45,577 nt of DNA from positions 1 to 45,577 of the IMG/VR virus record IMGVR_UViG_3300011440_000028; one strand, 5' to 3'. The notes under the pieces are model-generated. The model did not search any database and was not told the DNA's origin. It was given only the letters and a program-made list of their open reading frames with translations. Each line of letters starts with the position of its first letter. Position 1 is the stretch's first letter. This document shows, in pieces, positions 4,107 through 17,197 of this stretch. The translations under genes and the position numbers were made by a program. Source of the stretch: a virus.

Positions 4107-4277
4107 CGTCTTCTCCTCTATCTCGATCAGTCCGGTTAAGTTCACTGCGAAACATGGTAGCAAGATGCCGCCTAGGTCCGGGTCACAGTGGTGGCCTTGG
4201 GGGCCGATGTGGGTCGCTCTGCGGTTGTGAGAGTTACACCACCACGTCTCGCCCGATGTGTCCTTCTCATACAACAT
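3795..4277 (-). CDS. Long form: Cys/His-rich domain fused in frame to the Acb2-like hairpin (160 aa)
   Basis: From an ATG at 4277, inside the end of the metallophosphoesterase gene, the frame runs with no stop into the Acb2-like protein. The first 45 residues (LYEKDTSGETWWCNSHNRRA, then THIG, HHCDPDLGGI and PC) hold a WC-x2-H, a HHC and a later Cys spaced like a small metal-binding module. They look like a genuine conserved phage micro-domain rather than random sequence. A linker VNLTGLIEIEEK joins it to the internal Met at 4106. The SD before 4277 is weak (GGCGAGC) while that before 4106 is strong, so both a fusion and a separate short sponge may be made. Which is real cannot be settled from sequence alone. 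Confidence 0.5.
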   Translation of the reverse strand: MLYEKDTSGETWWCNSHNRRATHIGPQGHHCDPDLGGILLPCFAVNLTGLIEIEEKTMSEDAKMHDGLPVKGYKAQPASAVATVNLHKEMEEQLLRIIDAYKKNPAVDKRWLNIARTDLEKGFMALNRAIFQPGRVALPSDTENATPPQGGGPDATPPAR

Positions 4278-5226
4278 ACAGCTCGCCACGCCACCAAATC
4301 TCCCCCGCCTTCTCATCCATTACCGTGACCAGCTCCGGGGGGAGGAGGGCGCCGTCACGGAAGGTTAGCACACAGAAGCCCCCGCGCCAATTCTGGGGGT
4401 TCGACTCCGCGTAGTTGAACTGCGGGCCCCCCACCGCAGCCAGACACCCAGCGTCAACCCCCCACCGTGTTCCGTTGTAGTCGGTGAGGGGCGTGACCTT
4501 CTGGCTATGAAGGTGGCCCGTAACCATCGTCCGCCCGGACCAAAGCGCATTGTTATGCGGCGCATGGATGCCTCCCTTGAAGCGATGCTTGACCACCGCG
4601 CCCCTCGCCCCGCCCACCTCTGCGGACCAACAAGGCTCCCAGAGGGGGAAATGTTCGACGAGACGAGTCCCCGGTACGCCACGGTACTCCGGCGCAACCG
4701 ACGCGAGGCGATTATTAAATCGAGCATCGTGATTGCCGAGAGGCCAAAGCCTTCGCGCCTTCGCAGACGCTCGTTCAATCTCACCAAGCCTTTCCGAGAC
4801 AACCGCGAGTTCATCAGCAAGGCTAGGTATATTTTCCCACCCAATCGGGGGGAAACGCGATATCGTGCCTGCATCGACAGCGTCTCCGTTGAAGATGACC
4901 ACCTTCGGCTTCATCTCCTCGATGAAGGCGACGAAGGCGCGGTGGGCGGTTGAGGAGACCCCAGGCCAGTAGTGGCCGTCTCCTCCCACCATGCAGATGC
5001 CGTCCTCCAGGGGGGCCTCGACGTGGGATTGGCTGACCTCAACGGGGGGCGCCGGGGAGTTTGGGCCGGTGAGGCGGACCCCCAGCCGGGCCTCGACGTT
5101 GAGCTTCCGCTGGTTGACCGATTGGACGGCGACGCCGAAGCGCTGGGCCATGGAGGCGGGCCCCAGTTGCTGGAAGAGGCCGGCGAAGTCGTTGTCGGAT
5201 AGCTGAGCGAGGGGACGATGTGCCAT
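4267..5226 (-). CDS. Calcineurin-like metallophosphoesterase with N-terminal HTH-like segment (319 aa)
   Basis: I chose the ATG at 5226 because AAAGGAG lies five bases upstream. A GTG at 5340, overlapping the polymerase stop as GTGA, would add 38 Arg/Ala-rich residues. Residues 10-55 resemble a helix-turn-helix (SMAQRFGVAVQSVNQRKLNV). The enzyme core follows with the family's metal motifs in order: GDGHYW (82-87), NGDAVD (113-118), GNHDA (164-168) and GHLHS (237-241). Such phage enzymes hydrolyse phosphodiesters or nucleotides; the substrate is unknown. It lies between polymerase and the Acb2-like gene, so cleavage of signalling nucleotides is worth considering, but that is inference. Confidence 0.85.
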   Translation of the reverse strand: MAHRPLAQLSDNDFAGLFQQLGPASMAQRFGVAVQSVNQRKLNVEARLGVRLTGPNSPAPPVEVSQSHVEAPLEDGICMVGGDGHYWPGVSSTAHRAFVAFIEEMKPKVVIFNGDAVDAGTISRFPPIGWENIPSLADELAVVSERLGEIERASAKARRLWPLGNHDARFNNRLASVAPEYRGVPGTRLVEHFPLWEPCWSAEVGGARGAVVKHRFKGGIHAPHNNALWSGRTMVTGHLHSQKVTPLTDYNGTRWGVDAGCLAAVGGPQFNYAESNPQNWRGGFCVLTFRDGALLPPELVTVMDEKAGEIWWRGELYVV

Positions 5227-5336
5227 GGGACTCCTTTGGGGTAGTCCCGCCACCGCCACCCTAGCAGGAGCCCGTCGCGTGGTCGAGGCCTTCGCCCGGC
5301 GCTTGGGAGGCGCCGCCCGTCTTGCCGCCTGTCTGC

Positions 5337-6956
5337 TCACACCGCCTCCTTCAACCCGAGTGGGTTCTCTTTGCTAGCCTTACCCCAATTAGTGCCAGTA
5401 GCTATTTCAATCGGAATGACCATCTCGCGGGTGACGCCCTGGAAGTCTGTCACGGGGTTGACAACGCGCATGAGCCGGCGCAGGGCCGCCAGCGCAGCAT
5501 CACGTTCAGGCGTCGGAAACTGCCCTAGGATGGCATCGTGAACCTGAGCAAGAAGCTGAACCAACCAAGGGTCGCACTCTTTCCAGACCCTGTACAAACC
5601 GATGTTCAAGATGTCGCCCACCCCGCCCTGGGGGGAGAAGGAGAGGCCCTGCTTCCGGGTGTGATCGTCCCAGGGGCGGCCCATCAGCCAGACCACGCGG
5701 CGGAGGTGGTTGTATAGGGGGCGGGACTCCTTCACCTCGCCCGCGATCCACTTCTGCCACTCGCGGATCATGGGGAAGGCCTCGAAGTAGCTCTTCTGGG
5801 CCGCCGCAGCCACTGCGACTGGGATATGCGCAATTCGCGCCATCCCGTAGGGTGTAAGGCCATAATTCGACCCGTGCTGCACCCGTTTCGATTGAAAACG
5901 AAGATCATGGCCCGGCACGGCGTCCCATGTGGGAAGCGTCGTCGACGCAATCTTCTTATCACGCAGAATGTCGCCAGTCCATGCGACATCTGGCCACAGC
6001 AGCCTGCAGACATAGGTGTGGACGTCCCCTTTGTGTGCCTCGATATAGCCCAGCTCACCACTCAGGTAGGCGACCAGGAGGCTCTCCGCCGTCTTGAGGT
6101 CGGCATAGAACATGGTATATCCTGGGTCGGCGAGGAAGATATGGCGATGCTGCTCGCCAACATTCTGTAAGTTGGAGCCAACTCCAAACGGGTCCTTCGA
6201 AGATGACCACCTTCCCGTCCACGCCGCAGCTACATTGAAGCTCGCATGAAACCGGCCTGCCGGGGATAACTTCGCATTTAAGAACCCAAGTTGTTTCACT
6301 AGGTCCCGGTGGTCCAGAAGGGCCTGACATAGCGCTTGCGTTCCTTTCCACTTCCGCGGGGACTCCATCTCGACTAGCGAGGAGAGGGCCTCCTCATTCG
6401 TCGTCAGGTTCCCCTCCTTGTTGTAACGGTGGGGCATTTTGTGCAAGTCGTACAGCAAATGCTTTACTTGATCGTCGGAACCGGGCTCGAACGGTTTGTA
6501 CTTTCGGCGTGGCGCGAGGCACACTAAGCAGGTCATATTCTCGGTAGGCAACTTCTCGCTTTTGACGGATGGACGCGGCCATTTGTGCAGTTTCCTCTTA
6601 CCACTGGGGGCGAAGCCTACCACGTCGCAGGGGCCCGTCTCCAGCTCCCACCCGTCCCACAGCTCCAGCACGGCAGGAAGCTGCCCGATCCGGGCCTCTA
6701 GCCGCTCCTTCTCTTTCCCAAGCCGCTTCGCGGCTTGGGTCCGCGCGGTCACGTCCACCCGGAGGCCTCGGAGGGTCATCGCGAGGGACGGGGCCAGCTG
6801 CCGCTTGTTCCACTCGTAGATGCGGTGCTGGTCCGCGTTGAGGCGCGGCTTGAGGACGTCGAAGATTTCCCTCGTCCCCGTCGTGTCGAGGCAGGAGTAT
6901 GCGGCGAACTTCAGCTCGCCGCTAAGGGCCTGGGCCTGCTCTAGGTCAACCTTCAC
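5337..6956 (-). CDS. polA: Family-A DNA polymerase, polymerase part of a split enzyme (539 aa)
   Basis: The GTG start at 6956 follows GTGAGGG and overlaps the upstream gene by 11 bases. Palm and finger motifs are clear: TGRWSS...NLQN (247-265), motif A YADLKTAES (285-292, Asp286), motif B RFQSK....GSNYG (353-366) and motif C QVHDA (471-475). The N-terminus begins at the end of an exonuclease domain: YSCLDTTGTREI carries the Y-x3-D of Exo III. The preceding Exo I and II motifs are not in this protein but in the gene at 8428-9489. The polymerase therefore seems divided inside its proofreading domain. It would replicate phage DNA with the nearby recombination and nuclease proteins. Confidence 0.93.
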   Translation of the reverse strand: MKVDLEQAQALSGELKFAAYSCLDTTGTREIFDVLKPRLNADQHRIYEWNKRQLAPSLAMTLRGLRVDVTARTQAAKRLGKEKERLEARIGQLPAVLELWDGWELETGPCDVVGFAPSGKRKLHKWPRPSVKSEKLPTENMTCLVCLAPRRKYKPFEPGSDDQVKHLLYDLHKMPHRYNKEGNLTTNEEALSSLVEMESPRKWKGTQALCQALLDHRDLVKQLGFLNAKLSPAGRFHASFNVAAAWTGRWSSSKDPFGVGSNLQNVGEQHRHIFLADPGYTMFYADLKTAESLLVAYLSGELGYIEAHKGDVHTYVCRLLWPDVAWTGDILRDKKIASTTLPTWDAVPGHDLRFQSKRVQHGSNYGLTPYGMARIAHIPVAVAAAAQKSYFEAFPMIREWQKWIAGEVKESRPLYNHLRRVVWLMGRPWDDHTRKQGLSFSPQGGVGDILNIGLYRVWKECDPWLVQLLAQVHDAILGQFPTPERDAALAALRRLMRVVNPVTDFQGVTREMVIPIEIATGTNWGKASKENPLGLKEAV

Positions 6957-7242
6957 GGACGTCCCTCACTTCACCGTCCCAAGTCTCCTGCACACGGCTC
7001 ACCCTAATGTCGAGCGGGACGCCCTCTACCTGCCAGTCGCTGTGCCCCGAGCCCAGCTTGTCAGGCGAGGTGAGGGCGAACCGCACGTCGGTTTTCATCG
7101 TGGCGATGATGAAATCGCGGCACGCCTTGTCCGGGCAGTAGAGGACAATCCGGAAGCCGTCCCCATCATAGATGCCGGCGCTAGCATGCCGAACCGTCGT
7201 CTTGAGGGCCACGACGAAACCATAAAGCATCTTGAACAGCAT
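6946..7242 (-). CDS. Hypothetical early protein between the two polymerase parts (98 aa)
   Basis: The ATG at 7242 overlaps the upstream stop by one base (TGATG), so I prefer it to a longer frame. The protein opens MLFKMLYGFVVALKT (possible short amphipathic or membrane-skimming helix) and continues as a soluble mixed alpha/beta fold with two Cys (YCPDKACRDF). No family recognised. It is one of five small genes that separate the exonuclease and polymerase genes, and it overlaps the polymerase start by 11 bases. Confidence 0.6.
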   Translation of the reverse strand: MLFKMLYGFVVALKTTVRHASAGIYDGDGFRIVLYCPDKACRDFIIATMKTDVRFALTSPDKLGSGHSDWQVEGVPLDIRVSRVQETWDGEVRDVREG

Positions 7243-7577
7243 CAGTACCCCGCTCCGTCGTAGATGCAACGTGGTGCTACGCCGGTAGCTGGACGCACGA
7301 CACAAAGGTGAAGGGCGCCATCGGGCGCCGGGTAAACAGGCTTGAAGCCCCACGGGACGAAGACCCTCCCGTGGATGGTGGTCATCCATCGTCCGTTATC
7401 GGCATTTTCTACCCGCGTGACAGGGGCGCAGTCATTATCGTGGCAGCACTCCTTCGAGTAGAAGGAGTGGGCTTGGGCCGGTGCTGAGCACCGGCCCAGA
7501 AGGGAGCCCACTACGAAGACGAGGAGAATAAGCGCAAAGAGCCCGACGTTACCGTCATCATCGTTTCCGAGTTGCAT
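7242..7577 (-). CDS. Exported or anchored Cys-rich protein of the CC...DC type (111 aa)
   Basis: A short N-terminus leads into a hydrophobic segment at about residues 12-29 (VGLFALILLVFVVGSLLG). Then comes APAQAHSFYSKECCHDNDCA, the start of a Cys-rich domain of the kind seen in small secreted proteins of alphaproteobacteria (HS.Y...CC...DC.PV). Later Cys (LHLCVV, PRCIY) could complete two disulphides. An AQAH signal-peptidase site or a membrane anchor are both possible. The domain looks host-derived, which is a weak pointer to an alphaproteobacterial host. Role in infection unknown; envelope modification is a guess. Confidence 0.7.
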   Translation of the reverse strand: MQLGNDDDGNVGLFALILLVFVVGSLLGRCSAPAQAHSFYSKECCHDNDCAPVTRVENADNGRWMTTIHGRVFVPWGFKPVYPAPDGALHLCVVRPATGVAPRCIYDGAGY

Positions 7578-7968
7578 GGTCCCACCCTCTGAAGTTGCCG
7601 CCCAGCGCGTATTGCAGGGCCTCGACTATCTCTCGCTGGGTTGCCCTATTTGGGATGTGTATCTTCACCGCGTCCTCTAGGTCGGGAGGGAGCGGCTTAG
7701 GCGCTTCTCGTGCCATAATCGCCGCCTTCTGAATAGCCTCGTGCTCCTTATAAAGCTGCGCGTTGACCAGCTGCCGGAGGGTGATGGCGATGCTGGTTAG
7801 GGCCGCCTCGGTCGATAGGTGGGGTCCGGTGAGGGAGAGGCCGAGGAAGCCCGCGAGGGCTTCCACCTTATCGTTGATAGAGCGGCCGTCCCAGGGATCG
7901 ACCCGCCAGCTTCCGTCTGGCTGGCGGGTGTACTCGCGGTGGGCGCCGAGTGCGCGTTCAGTAGGCAT
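7558..7968 (-). CDS. Hypothetical early protein (136 aa)
   Basis: A soluble protein with a basic N-terminus (TERALGAHREYTRQPDGSW), a central helical region (STEAALTSIAITLRQLVNAQ) and a C-terminal section ending NFRGWDHATRKR. It overlaps its neighbours by 20 and 11 bases. The SIAITLRQL stretch resembles segments of the next two proteins upstream (AISAKRQAD, SIAISLRRIAD), so the three may share an interaction helix. No domain recognised. Confidence 0.6.
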   Translation of the reverse strand: MPTERALGAHREYTRQPDGSWRVDPWDGRSINDKVEALAGFLGLSLTGPHLSTEAALTSIAITLRQLVNAQLYKEHEAIQKAAIMAREAPKPLPPDLEDAVKIHIPNRATQREIVEALQYALGGNFRGWDHATRKR

Positions 7969-8251
7969 CCTTCGGGCCCTCCAGCTTTTCTAGCTTCGCC
8001 TTTTCCACCGCAGCGACGGCCTTCTCTGGAAACCTCTCCGCCATCATGACGACGCCAATGGCGGCGAGGATTTTGCTGATCTTCGCAAGGCTGTCCGCCT
8101 GTCGTTTAGCGCTGATCGCCGCCGAGAGGGCGATGGCGTCGTCGGCGGCGGCCATCTTCTGTTCATAGGTCGTGTCGCTTATTTTCAGGAAGACCCTAAG
8201 CGACTCGACGATAACCGGCTCTAGTAGGGAAAATCCGCTCTTCTCACTCAT
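7958..8251 (-). CDS. Hypothetical helical early protein (97 aa)
   Basis: Almost entirely helical by composition: SLLEPVIVESLRVFLKISDT, then AADDAIALSAAISAKRQADS and a Lys/Glu-rich C-terminus. Starts at ATG 8251, overlapping the next gene upstream by eight bases. A helix with the pattern A.ALS.AIS..RQAD.LAK recurs in the product of 8244-8435. Function unknown. Confidence 0.6.
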   Translation of the reverse strand: MSEKSGFSLLEPVIVESLRVFLKISDTTYEQKMAAADDAIALSAAISAKRQADSLAKISKILAAIGVVMMAERFPEKAVAAVEKAKLEKLEGPKDAY

Positions 8252-8435
8252 CTCCGTCTCCTTTTCTCTTCGCTAGACCGTCTGCGATACGCCTCAAGCT
8301 GATCGCGATTGACAGGACGTTCGCCTGGAACACCGCCTTCTCCGCATCTTTAATAGTTTCGGGCCCCGGAAGGTGTGCGAAGAACTCCAACGCACCTTTT
8401 TCGAGCCCTGCTAGAGGTCCATTCTCCTTACTCAT
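8244..8435 (-). CDS. Hypothetical small helical protein (63 aa)
   Basis: The ATG at 8435 follows GAGGAGAAG and lies eight bases inside the end of the UDG-exonuclease gene, so translation is probably coupled. The product ends in a helix NVLSIAISLRRIADGLAKRK that matches a motif in the two following small proteins. No recognised domain. Confidence 0.6.
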   Translation of the reverse strand: MSKENGPLAGLEKGALEFFAHLPGPETIKDAEKAVFQANVLSIAISLRRIADGLAKRKGDGDE

Positions 8436-9489
8436 CACGCTTCTCCTCTCGCTCAACCTTCTTCGTTCCGCCGTGGCTCACCCAGGCTTTCCACGCACCT
8501 TGTTCCGAGTAGGCGCTCGCCATGAAGGCGAGGCTCGCCGGTAGTTCAGGGGCAAGCGCCTTGTGGAGGAGGCGAAGGTCCTCGCGAACTTGATTTGGCT
8601 TAATGCCCATCTTCGCGAGAAGCCAGACGACGTCGTAGTTGACGAAGTTCTGACCAAGCTTAGGTGTCGCACTCTCCAGACAACCCTTGACCGCGAGCCA
8701 GGCCCGCTTCTCCAAGGCAGCAGTCGGCCAGTAGCTCCGATTAATGGTCGCCAGACTGATGAAGGGGACATAGATCGCTTCCTCTGCATTGGGGGCGAAG
8801 CTGACGCCGCGGACTTGGCCCCAGCCAGTCTCAATGTCGCAACTGAGGAGGTCGGCCATCGCATAGCGGGCCAGGGTCTCCTCGACTTCCTCTATCGTCG
8901 GGGCGATGTTCAAGCTACGTTTCGGGTAGGCGATCCGCGGGCCCCGCTCCGCCTCCATCGCCGCCTTGATGTAGTCCCCGATGCAGATGGGGAACTGGTT
9001 CCACTGGCGGAGCACCGCGGCCGGGTGCCAGGTCGGGAGCAGTTTGGTGCTGGCGTAGACGCCAGCACCATAGCAGAGGCCGCCCCTCCACTTCGCGATG
9101 GACGGGGTGCCGAGCAGGGCCAGTAGGGCGGTGCCGCCTAACGGCACCACTACGTTCGGCCTTACTGTCGCGAGTTCGCCCGCCAGACGCTCGCAGTTTC
9201 GAGCCACGAACGGCTCCCACCCGGCACCCCGCTTCGCCCGCTCCTTCGAGACCTTGTTCTCCTCCAGCTTCGTTGAGAAAACATTACCCACGAACACGGA
9301 AGACCTATCGATACTTGCAGCTCTCAACAGGGCGTCAAACACGCGACCACTCGGCCCAACGAAGGGGCGGAACTTCTCACACTCTTCCTCCCCCGGGGCC
9401 TCCCCGACAAAGGCTAGCTTGCAGTGCCCGCTCGCGGGCATCTGCGATGGCACCTCTCGGAGGGCGACTGGGGGAAGACCGTCGTTCAC
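8428..9489 (-). CDS. Uracil-DNA-glycosylase-like domain fused to a truncated DnaQ-type 3'-5' exonuclease (353 aa)
   Basis: The GTG at 9489 overlaps the upstream stop (GTGA) and follows AAGGAGAAGAA. Residues 25-165 show the family 4/5 UDG-like fold: FVGEAPGEEE (28-36), RPFVGPSGRVFD (41-52), a central VVPLGGTAL and LPTWHPAAVLR (151-161). From 215 an exonuclease begins: CDIET (Exo I, D218/E220), GQNFVNYD (Exo II, to D286), then DLRLLHKALAPELPASL. It stops before the Exo III Y-x3-D. That missing motif opens the polymerase gene at 6956. In many phages this exonuclease is continuous with the polymerase; here it ends up joined to the glycosylase instead. No N-terminal CxxC pair of iron-sulphur UDGs is visible. 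Confidence 0.85.
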   Translation of the reverse strand: MNDGLPPVALREVPSQMPASGHCKLAFVGEAPGEEECEKFRPFVGPSGRVFDALLRAASIDRSSVFVGNVFSTKLEENKVSKERAKRGAGWEPFVARNCERLAGELATVRPNVVVPLGGTALLALLGTPSIAKWRGGLCYGAGVYASTKLLPTWHPAAVLRQWNQFPICIGDYIKAAMEAERGPRIAYPKRSLNIAPTIEEVEETLARYAMADLLSCDIETGWGQVRGVSFAPNAEEAIYVPFISLATINRSYWPTAALEKRAWLAVKGCLESATPKLGQNFVNYDVVWLLAKMGIKPNQVREDLRLLHKALAPELPASLAFMASAYSEQGAWKAWVSHGGTKKVEREEKRDE

Positions 9490-9668
9490 TTCTTCTCCTT
9501 CCCCGGCTTGAAGCGCTTGGCGATGTTCACGGCCGCGTCGAAGCTGGACCGCTTCCGTGTGGTGCCCGCTTCCTTCCCGCGCAGGCCCGCCAGCTTCGCC
9601 GCCGTAGCGGCCCGGGCCCTGCTAGTGTGGGAGGATCGGTTCAGCATCCCTGTTTTACCTTTTGGCAT
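9486..9668 (-). CDS. Small very basic protein (60 aa)
   Basis: GGAGGAGGAGAAGG stands before the ATG at 9668. The product opens MPKGKTGMLN and is dominated by Arg, Lys, Ser and Ala, ending KRFKPGKEKK. Composition suggests nucleic-acid binding. Another basic micro-protein beginning MPKG lies at 9843-9992, so the two may be diverged copies. Confidence 0.65.
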   Translation of the reverse strand: MPKGKTGMLNRSSHTSRARAATAAKLAGLRGKEAGTTRKRSSFDAAVNIAKRFKPGKEKK

Positions 9669-11691: not shown

Positions 11692-11799
11692 TCAGTTGCC
11701 GCGGCGGCTCCGCGCCAGCCAGAAACCAACGACGACGCCGATGAGGGCGCAGACGGCAAACTGAAGGAAGGAGAGGGAGAAGGACTCAAGGCCGGTCAT
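11692..11799 (-). CDS. Single-pass membrane micro-protein (35 aa)
   Basis: ATG at 11799 overlaps the metallophosphoesterase stop (ATGA). The product MTGLESFSLSFLQFAVCALI continues GVVVGFWLARSRRGN: one transmembrane helix followed by an Arg-rich cytoplasmic end. It pairs in design with the 29-residue protein at 12599-12688, one gene away on the other side of the phosphoesterase. Confidence 0.6.
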   Translation of the reverse strand: MTGLESFSLSFLQFAVCALIGVVVGFWLARSRRGN

Positions 11800-12602
11800 G
11801 ACTGATGCTCCACTTCAAAGCTGACGTCGGGGTTGAAACCTTTGGCTTCGCCGTTGATGGCGTAGCCGCGGCAGTTGGCCATCACCTTGCACTGGGCCAC
11901 GTCGTAGCTGCGCCGGATATGGGTGTGGCCGTGGACCCAATAGCGGATGTTGGGGTGGGCGGTGATGAATGGCTCTAGATTGCTCGCGTAGCCCTCGCTG
12001 ATTTTACTTCCGCCGTGGCTGGGGTCTATGCCTTGCCACGAGGGGGCGTGGTGCGTCATGACGACGATGGTTTTGTCTTTATTTGTATTAGCGAGGTCAC
12101 CCAGCTTCCATAGGACGTTTTCGTGATGCTGCGCCGCATCATAGGTTGTCCATCGCTCATGGTCGTTCCTCGTGTATACGATCTGGAAATCGTTCATGTT
12201 GTATTGGATAAGACGGTGAACACGCGGGTCTCCGCGGCCCATATCGGTCCAAAGGGTGGCGCCGAATAGGAGGGTCCGCTCGTCCAACTCGACGGCCTCG
12301 CAGTCGAGCCATCGGACGGCGGGCATCATCTTTCGCAGACGCGGGAAGGTATCCTCGTAGTAGCCCCTATAGGGCTCGTGATTGCCGGGGACTCCGAAGG
12401 CTCGCTGGAAGCGATTGCCCACCTCGTTGTTGAGGGCGACCGTCGCCTTCCGGACGCTTCTCATTTCGGGGCTTGTCATCGCTGGATCGAGGGTGCGACA
12501 GATGGTGATGTCTCCCGCGAGGAGGAGGATGTCGCCATCGGGGAGGGGCTTCTTGAGGGCGCCGAACTCCAGGTGGAGGTCGCTCATGTAGTGGATTTTC
12601 AT
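11796..12602 (-). CDS. Calcineurin-like metallophosphoesterase (268 aa)
   Basis: ATG 12602 overlaps the upstream micro-gene stop (ATGA) and opens MKIHYMSDLHLEFG, the canonical first motif (D8, H10). The others follow in order: LLLAGDITI, VPGNHEPYRGYY, VMTHHAPS and WVHGHTHIRRS. This is the Icc/YkuE-like single-domain form that hydrolyses phosphomono- or diesters with two metal ions. It differs from the longer HTH-containing phosphoesterase at 4267-5226. Substrate unknown. It lies among DNA recombination genes, with membrane micro-proteins on both sides. Confidence 0.88.
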   Translation of the reverse strand: MKIHYMSDLHLEFGALKKPLPDGDILLLAGDITICRTLDPAMTSPEMRSVRKATVALNNEVGNRFQRAFGVPGNHEPYRGYYEDTFPRLRKMMPAVRWLDCEAVELDERTLLFGATLWTDMGRGDPRVHRLIQYNMNDFQIVYTRNDHERWTTYDAAQHHENVLWKLGDLANTNKDKTIVVMTHHAPSWQGIDPSHGGSKISEGYASNLEPFITAHPNIRYWVHGHTHIRRSYDVAQCKVMANCRGYAINGEAKGFNPDVSFEVEHQS

Positions 12603-12688
12603 TGACCGCACCCCGCTTGCAACCACACGGCCATGGCAAAACCGAACCAGTAGGTGAGGAAGACGCAGATTGCGATGTGCCAGTTCAT
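12599..12688 (-). CDS. Single-pass membrane micro-protein (29 aa)
   Basis: ATG at 12688 overlaps the nuclease stop and its own stop overlaps the next ATG, both as ATGA. MNWHIAICVFLTYWFGFAMA is a complete transmembrane helix, followed by VWLQAGCGQ. Its place between two overlaps, and the hydrophobic frame without a break, support a real gene. Confidence 0.6.
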   Translation of the reverse strand: MNWHIAICVFLTYWFGFAMAVWLQAGCGQ

Positions 12689-15639: not shown

Positions 15640-15951
15640 TCATGTTTTGACTGCGAGGTAATCCCATCCATAAAGTGGGTTCCTCTTTTGGAAGAGGAGG
15701 CACCGTCCTTGGGCGCCGGCTCTCCAAGCGACTGATGCAACTTCATCAGCCCTTTCCATGAAACGCCAAGCGACGTCGGGTAAGAGGGTGCGAGGAGGAT
15801 TTTCTCTGTCGATGGATAGTTGGCCATGCCAGTAGCGGCACCACTGGCCACGCTTGGCGTACTTGAGCCACTGCTGGAATTGCGCCGCTTCATCTACGCG
15901 CCTTACCTTTAGATTACCCGACTGGATCAGGCTTGTCTTGTTCTGTGTCAC
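15640..15951 (-). CDS. Hypothetical early protein (103 aa)
   Basis: GTG start at 15951 after AGGAAAACAGG. A folded-looking protein: AAQFQQWLKYAKRGQWCRYW, then HGQLSIDREN and a C-terminal GRCLLFQKRNPLYGWDYLAV. The pattern of a short helical body ending in L.Q.R....WDYLAV is seen in many small phage proteins of unknown function. It overlaps the phosphatase gene by 38 bases. Confidence 0.65.
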   Translation of the reverse strand: MTQNKTSLIQSGNLKVRRVDEAAQFQQWLKYAKRGQWCRYWHGQLSIDRENPPRTLLPDVAWRFMERADEVASVAWRAGAQGRCLLFQKRNPLYGWDYLAVKT

Positions 15952-17197
15952 CCTGTTTTCCTATCACTATCTCGTCTTCGACGTCTCCAACGTAGGAGAG
16001 CCACTCGAACTTTCCCAAAATCGCATTCCACTCGAATAGGTTTCCGTCCACCACAACTTCGTGTCGGTCCTCCATCCCCTTGACGGTGGGCATCGCGTGA
16101 CCAGCCCTCCGCATTCTCGCGGCGAACTTCTTGTATTGGTTGTTGGACAGGGTGGGGACGGTATCGTCCTCGTCGTCGTCCCCTTCGGTGGCGACGACGG
16201 TGAGCTTAGTGGGGTTCGTGTTCGTGACGTTGCTCCAGAGTTGGCCCTGAGCGTAGCTCCCATAATGATTAGCGGGAAGGCTAATTACCTTCTGCCCCGT
16301 GATCTCCTCGATGTACTCGACCTGGGCCTCGCTCTCCACAGTCTCGGCACAGTAGGTGTCCCTCACCCATGCTACGGGGCAGTAGTCGGGATCGACCCAT
16401 CCGCAGAGGACGGCGAGGATCGAGGCGGCGGTCCCCGTCCTGCCGTGGCCTCCCATGCAGTAGAGGACGACGTCGCCGTCGATCCGCTTCAGGGCGGAGA
16501 CGAAGCTGGCCCACCAGTCCCGCCCTAGCGCCACGGCCCCGTAATCGGGCCAGCTGACGTGGAGGAAGGGGATCGGGGTGTCTTGGCGGAAGATGTCCTC
16601 GGGGAGCATGGCCTTCGCAGCGGCGTTGCCGGTCACGAGGAACTCGTCGCCCTTGTTCTCCTTCGACCAGTATCCGCCGTACTCGATGAGTGAGACGATA
16701 AGCTTGAAGTCGCGGGTTGAGTTGGTGTAGGGGCGGCGAGCGACTTGCGACTCCTTCCCAACGTAGATGTTGGCCTTGCCGCACTGACCGAGGTAGTAGA
16801 CGCCGGTGTGGCAATCCTTCTTGCGTTCCCAGGTTGTCATGCGGGTTGCGGGCTCCACTGTGGCGTTGGCGGCGGTTCCGGTCCCTTGTTCCGCAAGCAC
16901 CTTGCAAGCGGTGCATTGGACGACGCATTGGCCGGTGGTGTGGCAGCAGTAGAAGCCAACCGTGGCTAGCTTCGGACCGTTGCCCATGGCGGGGTCTCCG
17001 AGGTACTTGCAAACCCTAGTCGAGGTGCACTCGATGAGGCTGCAAGGGCAACGGTAGGTGGGGCACTCCATGAGCCCGACTGTGACTATGTTGCTATCCA
17101 CGGTGGCGGTCCTCATCGCGTTTGCGTTGTGCTTGCAGACCCCCAGGGGGACGCAAGCGTTGTCCATGCACCAGGCGTCGTCTAGGGGGCACCTCAT
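15914..17197 (-). CDS. Protein-tyrosine-phosphatase-like enzyme with Cys-rich N-terminal domain (427 aa)
   Basis: ATG 17197 overlaps the stop of the PPDK-like gene (ATGA), so the two are translationally coupled. Residues 1-105 hold about 20 Cys in short spacings (CPLDDAWC, CPTYRCPC, FYCCHTTGQC, CTACK), suggesting several metal sites. The catalytic domain follows: HVSWPDYG (213-220) gives a PTP-like WPD loop with Asp218. LYCMGGHGRTGTAA (245-258) is the CX5R phosphate loop with Cys247 and Arg253. The C-terminus is acidic (GDDDEDD) and ends with a small domain. This is a complete Cys-phosphatase active site. Substrate could be protein, RNA or a nucleotide; the partner gene next door suggests it may oppose a phosphotransfer step. 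Confidence 0.82.
   Translation of the reverse strand: MRCPLDDAWCMDNACVPLGVCKHNANAMRTATVDSNIVTVGLMECPTYRCPCSLIECTSTRVCKYLGDPAMGNGPKLATVGFYCCHTTGQCVVQCTACKVLAEQGTGTAANATVEPATRMTTWERKKDCHTGVYYLGQCGKANIYVGKESQVARRPYTNSTRDFKLIVSLIEYGGYWSKENKGDEFLVTGNAAAKAMLPEDIFRQDTPIPFLHVSWPDYGAVALGRDWWASFVSALKRIDGDVVLYCMGGHGRTGTAASILAVLCGWVDPDYCPVAWVRDTYCAETVESEAQVEYIEEITGQKVISLPANHYGSYAQGQLWSNVTNTNPTKLTVVATEGDDDEDDTVPTLSNNQYKKFAARMRRAGHAMPTVKGMEDRHEVVVDGNLFEWNAILGKFEWLSYVGDVEDEIVIGKQGDTEQDKPDPVG

Follow-up and report, generated by a model that had tools for sequence, protein, structure and literature searches.

A phage family-A DNA polymerase with its proofreading domain divided between two genes

Can a replicative DNA polymerase keep a working proofreading site when its exonuclease domain is encoded in two pieces by two genes? 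The question is raised by a virus sequence of 45,577 nucleotides (IMG/VR virus record IMGVR_UViG_3300011440_000028, positions 1 to 45,577; hereafter the window), the first 25 kb of which had no nucleotide match to phage records. One gene encodes a uracil-DNA glycosylase (UDG) domain and the first part of a 3'-5' exonuclease domain (the N-fragment), and another encodes the remainder of the exonuclease domain and a family-A polymerase (the C-fragment). An earlier note on this DNA had read the first gene as a UDG-like domain with exonuclease motifs Exo I and Exo II that ends before Exo III, and the second as opening with Exo III and continuing into a full polymerase; Pfam matches and motifs bore out both readings (Table 1). 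The comparisons reported here lead us to consider it likely, with good confidence, that an ancestral polymerase was cut once in a linker, has been inherited as two genes, and has its proofreading site rebuilt in trans.

Two pieces of one ancestral chain

We compared both fragments with proteins that carry UDG, exonuclease and polymerase on a single chain. Such unsplit chains, which the earlier note had ascribed to related phages, were indeed found in Microcystis phage Mel-JY34, ctMlz233, vir526 and many IMG/VR contigs; the window instead has two open reading frames (ORFs) 1471 bp apart. On a reference profile of 23 single-chain proteins (787 columns), columns 3-340 were matched by 55 N-fragments (E 3.9e-86) and columns 345-785 by 51 C-fragments (E 1.7e-89), and together they covered the profile with no part missing and none duplicated. 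This alignment, proposed in the earlier note as a way to find the breakpoint, placed the cut between columns 340 and 345, in a linker that comes after the WK motif C-terminal to Exo II and precedes the Exo III helix. The PHROG 17 'DNA polymerase' profile was likewise matched in order and without overlap, by the N-fragment at 479-786 and the C-fragment at 806-1234. We concluded that one ancestral chain gave rise to both fragments, which correspond to collinear parts of it without overlap.

Each piece was predicted by AlphaFold2 to fold well on its own. The N-fragment model (predicted local distance difference test score, pLDDT, 91.1; predicted template modelling score, pTM, 0.86) matched family-4 UDGs (1l9g, 8.6e-13), the Klenow exonuclease and, over 301 columns, the solved UDG-bearing polymerase of phiLo (9qhs) in Foldseek searches, and the C-fragment model (pLDDT 91.8, pTM 0.84) matched Bst PolA (1.3e-22) and Taq PolA. 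Residues D286, K357 and D474 of the C-fragment, which were checked as the motif A/C catalytic carboxylates and the motif B lysine, were invariant in 51 sequences. The UDG domain has the GEAPG..E and HP....R motifs, the UDG fold and a hidden Markov model match to family-4 UDGs. The four-cysteine Fe-S pattern of that family was absent from the domain, with no CxxC before motif A and N-fragment cysteines only at 23, 37, 99, 139 and 169, and because of this we call the domain only 'family-4-like' by sequence.

The split extends far beyond the window. Among the best 80 IMG/VR loci sampled with an N-fragment profile, 75 were split, 5 ended before the polymerase and none was single-chain, and sampling with a polymerase profile gave 72 split loci out of 72 that could be evaluated; the two samples have a few contigs in common. 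Carriers comprise more than 100 uncultured relatives from soil, lakes and the sea. Caulobacter phage Kuura, an isolate, is also split, with two small genes between the halves. It was the only member of the split clade found among 50,697 phage records; its UDG-exonuclease half is annotated 'hypothetical protein', and its paper does not mention a split polymerase. One split UDG-exonuclease/polymerase pair (locus L120, JANQED010000186.1) lies on a contig binned as an Anaerolineales metagenome-assembled genome (MAG), which may be a misbinned virus or a prophage.

An assembly error, a frameshift or a pseudogene might be suspected, the window being a metagenomic virus record. However, the same split occurs, with conserved fragment ends, in dozens of independent metagenomes, an isolate genome and a MAG contig; because it recurs in this way, an assembly error in the window is refuted, and we give artifacts of this kind next to no credence. 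The earlier note had looked to a single-chain relative, with errors in the window, as the case that would overturn the split, but single-chain relatives lie only outside the split clade. We concluded that the split is no artifact and that a large clade has become fixed for it.

A tree of 89 sequences, among them 48 dereplicated split ones, was built from 459 columns of the polymerase part. All 48 formed one group, with a support of 90 in the Shimodaira-Hasegawa-like approximate likelihood-ratio test (SH-aLRT), and the fission requires one change. Because the split lineages form one clade, a single fission is the simplest reading. On this reading, a family-A UDG-exonuclease-polymerase replicative enzyme would have been cut once, in an ancestor and within the linker that joins Exo II to Exo III, and since then would have been inherited as two separately translated genes of one operon-like stretch.

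Catalytic residues and the tail of the N-fragment

Both Exo I residues (D, E), both Exo II residues (N, D) and both Exo III residues (Y, D) were present in 48 of 48 dereplicated split pairs, so that a complete DEDDy set was found, although on two chains. The sole exception in the 89-sequence alignment was one column in one single-chain sequence, apparently misaligned. Divergence within the split clade reaches about 30-35% identity. In the window, D218, E220, N281 and D286 of the N-fragment and Y20 and D24 of the C-fragment were invariant among the nearest relatives, and Pfam DNA_pol_A_exo1 matched 44 of the 55 N-fragments. Ratios of nonsynonymous to synonymous substitution rates (dN/dS) against the two nearest relatives were about 0.08-0.11 over the region with Exo I and Exo II, and about 0.05-0.23 over that with Exo III, values that are rough because some dS were near saturation. 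As judged from these comparisons, the catalytic residues on both fragments are shown to be under purifying selection.

Because all catalytic residues are kept on both sides, a single working enzyme is very probably rebuilt from the two pieces. The N- and C-fragments would bind each other, and D218, E220 and D286 of the former would form one DEDDy site with Y20 and D24 of the latter, beside the polymerase. Several points weigh against this history. Conservation of the residues could have a different cause, for example if each fragment had another partner. The N-fragment does not have the fourth carboxylate, and hence it would be inactive if binding to the C-fragment failed. Lastly, support for a single fission was 90 and not >95, from a quick tree search with long branches, that of Tiera above all.

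The fission could also be real and proofreading lost, leaving a polymerase without exonuclease and a UDG-exonuclease protein that is vestigial or a free-standing repair protein. The N-fragment alone indeed has no Exo III and a disordered tail, and phage PolA variants without exonuclease are known (divPolA1/2; PMC11348598). In divPolA1, however, which is thought to be exonuclease-dead, the aspartates are replaced (PMC11348598), whereas here all six residues persist in every pair despite the divergence of the clade, and dN/dS is low on both fragments. We therefore regard the loss of proofreading as improbable. The earlier note had offered three options, of which two, an exonuclease rebuilt from two proteins and an ancestral gene cut by inserted small genes, are compatible and stand, while an inactive exonuclease is disfavored.

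The cut site of the split clade lies near a stretch of 28 residues of T7 polymerase that we take to be located between Exo II and Exo III. Loss of 28 residues in the exonuclease domain of the T7 enzyme abolishes its exonuclease activity (PMC3997047).

The N-fragment ends in a conserved tail. Its last 15 residues were predicted by AlphaFold2 to be disordered, and a terminal K-[RK]-[DE]-[DEA] was found in 46 of 55 loci, where the background for these proteins was 1.7e-4, a comparison that is not a probability, the sequences being related and not independent. The motif was absent in Kuura and several others, and it stood 7 to 20 residues from WK. Given this variable distance and the use of all six Arg codons at its second place, it is the peptide itself that is conserved. 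For the same reason of codon use, with the amino acids constant, a mere Shine-Dalgarno footprint was rejected as the sole cause of KRDE. A relic of the WKD[DE]GK of single-chain proteins was not supported, WK still being present upstream of KRDE.

This disordered tail ending in K-R-D-E may be a docking latch. It has a further possible meaning, namely that the split is itself functional: the UDG-exonuclease would be a subunit for proofreading and uracil scanning that can detach from the polymerase and docks there via a dedicated C-terminal K-[RK]-[DE]-[DE] peptide, and the replicase could then run with or without proofreading. We consider this rather unlikely. Exceedingly unlikely, in our view, is an N-fragment that acts as an autonomous exonuclease, in which the terminal K-x-D-E gives the fourth carboxylate and Exo III of the C-fragment is structural only. 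Strong conservation of the acidic terminal motif at the protein level agrees with such a role, but the Exo III Tyr and Asp of the C-fragment are invariant, Kuura and several others have no terminal motif, and its spacing from WK is not constant.

The junction and its cargo genes

Five small ORFs overlapping by a few bases lie between the halves in the window, as the earlier note had described. Relatives and start/stop coupling indicate that the likelier start is ATG 8435 for the first small gene and, for the last, ATG 7242 instead of 7389. Because the starts of all seven genes of the stretch are purine-rich or coupled and neighbors overlap by only a few bases, the stretch reads as a single operon. 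Across 65 loci, the gap ranged from -4 bp (an ATGA overlap) to 2793 bp. In many loci the two genes overlap as ATGA or TAATG, which is typical of translational coupling of separate proteins. Frameshift read-through in this overlapping class was considered and rejected, several loci having a stop in the downstream frame at the junction.

Phage polymerase genes often carry group I introns or inteins. An intron was raised for the split PolA of MEP401 by its authors (PMC10580990). The gap could be an intron or another spliced element, with one chain arising after RNA or protein splicing. However, neither the window region nor six relatives gave an Rfam intron match above the gathering score, sub-threshold chance matches being the only ones. 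In addition, each fragment has its own tail, start codon and Shine-Dalgarno-like site, and the many loci with adjacent or 4-bp overlapping genes leave nothing to splice. We judged splicing to be very unlikely.

Returning to a fission into two separately translated genes, parsimony, with 9 changes on the tree, gave the ancestor a gap, and the site has mostly held inserted genes since the cut. The 48 gap-bearing loci held 90 gap ORFs, comprising 59 singletons and a few small families. Scans of 87 of these revealed an HNH_3 endonuclease in 6 and endonuclease VII in 1, as well as DNA ligase, metallophosphoesterase, deoxynucleoside monophosphate kinase, RNase H and deoxyribosyltransferases; no homing endonuclease was recognized among the five gap genes of the window. 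In two phages with flanks about 82% identical, the difference was a 332-bp insert exactly at the junction. The simplest account is that an insertion, perhaps of a homing endonuclease, made the ancestral cut, and that cargo was then repeatedly exchanged or lost. After the fission, homing endonucleases would have landed at the junction, as would other small cargo genes, and we propose that this is why the gap content differs between lineages.

The largest gap (2.8 kb; L118:8110-10907) contains an ATP-dependent DNA ligase, a HAD phosphatase and a gene that by eye is MazG-like, and so holds a small cassette for replication and nucleotide metabolism within the divided polymerase. In L013, the polymerase gap contains a metallophosphoesterase (8649-9593) similar to two in the window. 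Those two are calcineurin-like and on the minus strand, one at 4267-5340, overlapping the end of the polymerase gene, and one at 11796-12626. A further minus-strand gene of the window (15914-17197) encodes 427 aa that include CMGGHGRTG, a phosphatase motif of the CX5R type, and that weakly match the dual-specificity phosphatase domain PTP-SAK of Pfam (9e-6).

Breaks at other places were also seen. Two loci of the single-chain type (L175:679-3380 and L196:4995-7663) are broken between UDG and exonuclease-polymerase, with the parts ~240 bp apart, independently and at another domain border. In L190, L191, L192, L195, L168 and L162/L163, the ORF breaks within the polymerase domain (~residue 530-550 of ctMlz233), in some with 0.2-0.85 kb between, and these may be introns, independent fissions or frameshifts. 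The single-chain polymerase ORFs of L170, L172, L173, L176 and L205 carry ~300 aa extra in frame, possibly inteins. In ctLwi270 (L004:1727-4364), two ORFs are annotated as DNA polymerase, and the ORF across the break resembles, by eye, an NrdR-type zinc ribbon (CxxC...CxxC). It was left out of our counts, its break lying after Exo III.

Table 1. Features of the divided polymerase and of the small genes between its halves (window coordinates).
Feature	Position	Strand	Remark
N-fragment, 353 aa: UDG domain and first two thirds of 3'-5' exonuclease domain	8428..9489	-	Pfam UDG 5.5e-20
UDG superfamily domain, residues 22-165 of N-fragment, motifs GEAPG and HPAAVLR	8995..9426	-	
Exo I, DIET (D218, E220 of N-fragment)	8827..8838	-	
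Exo II, NFVNYD (N281, D286 of N-fragment)	8632..8649	-	
KRDE, terminal tetrapeptide of N-fragment, clade motif K-[RK]-[DE]-[DEA]	8431..8442	-	
Small gene 1	8244..8435	-	ATG 8435 overlaps N-fragment stop
Small gene 2	7958..8251	-	Homologues in L013, L014 gaps
Small gene 3	7558..7968	-	Homologues in L013, L014 gaps
Small gene 4	7242..7577	-	56% identity to L018 gap ORF
Small gene 5	6946..7242	-	Likely start ATG 7242; homologue in L014 gap
C-fragment, 539 aa, GTG start: Exo III and family-A polymerase domain	5337..6956	-	Pfam DNA_pol_A 7.4e-30
Exo III, YSCLD (Y20, D24 of C-fragment)	6885..6899	-	

Meaning of the split and comparison with known systems

No earlier description of a UDG-PolA cut clade-wide through its proofreading site came up in the open literature, subscription journals being outside the scope of the search. 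As far as that literature shows, a proofreading-site cut of UDG-PolA that is fixed in a clade of well over 100 sequenced members is new, as is the conserved tail. If true, a two-polypeptide proofreading site fixed in a large clade would make this DEDDy exonuclease a natural split enzyme. The clade allows direct tests of the survival and reassembly of a fissioned active site, and of fidelity regulation by subunit exchange. Annotation is also corrected, in that the polymerase of such a phage, taken by itself, seems to have no exonuclease. With the tail peptide and the junction hotspot, the clade adds new features that are concrete and testable.

The closest known systems are the single-chain UDG-exonuclease-polymerases (Mel-JY34, ctMlz233, vir526; PHROG 17; solved relative phiLo, PDB 9qhs), which share the domain order and motifs and align end to end with the divided polymerase. 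They differ in being one chain of ~780-860 aa with no conserved K-x-D-E terminus and no separate start at the linker. The DNA polymerase I of jumbo phage PaBG likewise has a UDG on a phage PolA, but is described as one protein (PMC7412058). Most MEP401-type OM43 phages also have a family-A polymerase in two ORFs that flank a small unknown ORF, an arrangement conserved among them. Their break, however, is inside the polymerase domain (exonuclease and N-part of the polymerase/C-part of the polymerase) and leaves the exonuclease whole; UDG is not mentioned in the available portion of their description (PMC10580990).

Phage enzymes made in pieces include Aeh1 NrdA, T4 topoisomerase and gp43A/gp43B, with activity shown for NrdA and gp43 (PMC2988022). 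The gp43A and gp43B of Aeromonas phages 25 and 44RR are likewise a replicative polymerase (T4-type PolB) in two genes; in phage 25 a homing endonuclease is found at the split, and its pieces co-purify and polymerize (PMC2988022). These split enzymes belong to family B, have no UDG and are known from a few phages. In Aeh1 NrdA, an essential enzyme was cut by the HNH homing endonuclease mobE, and its two peptides form an active enzyme (PMC2988022). That case is a ribonucleotide reductase described from one phage, whereas the split clade has many unrelated cargo genes at the site of the cut.

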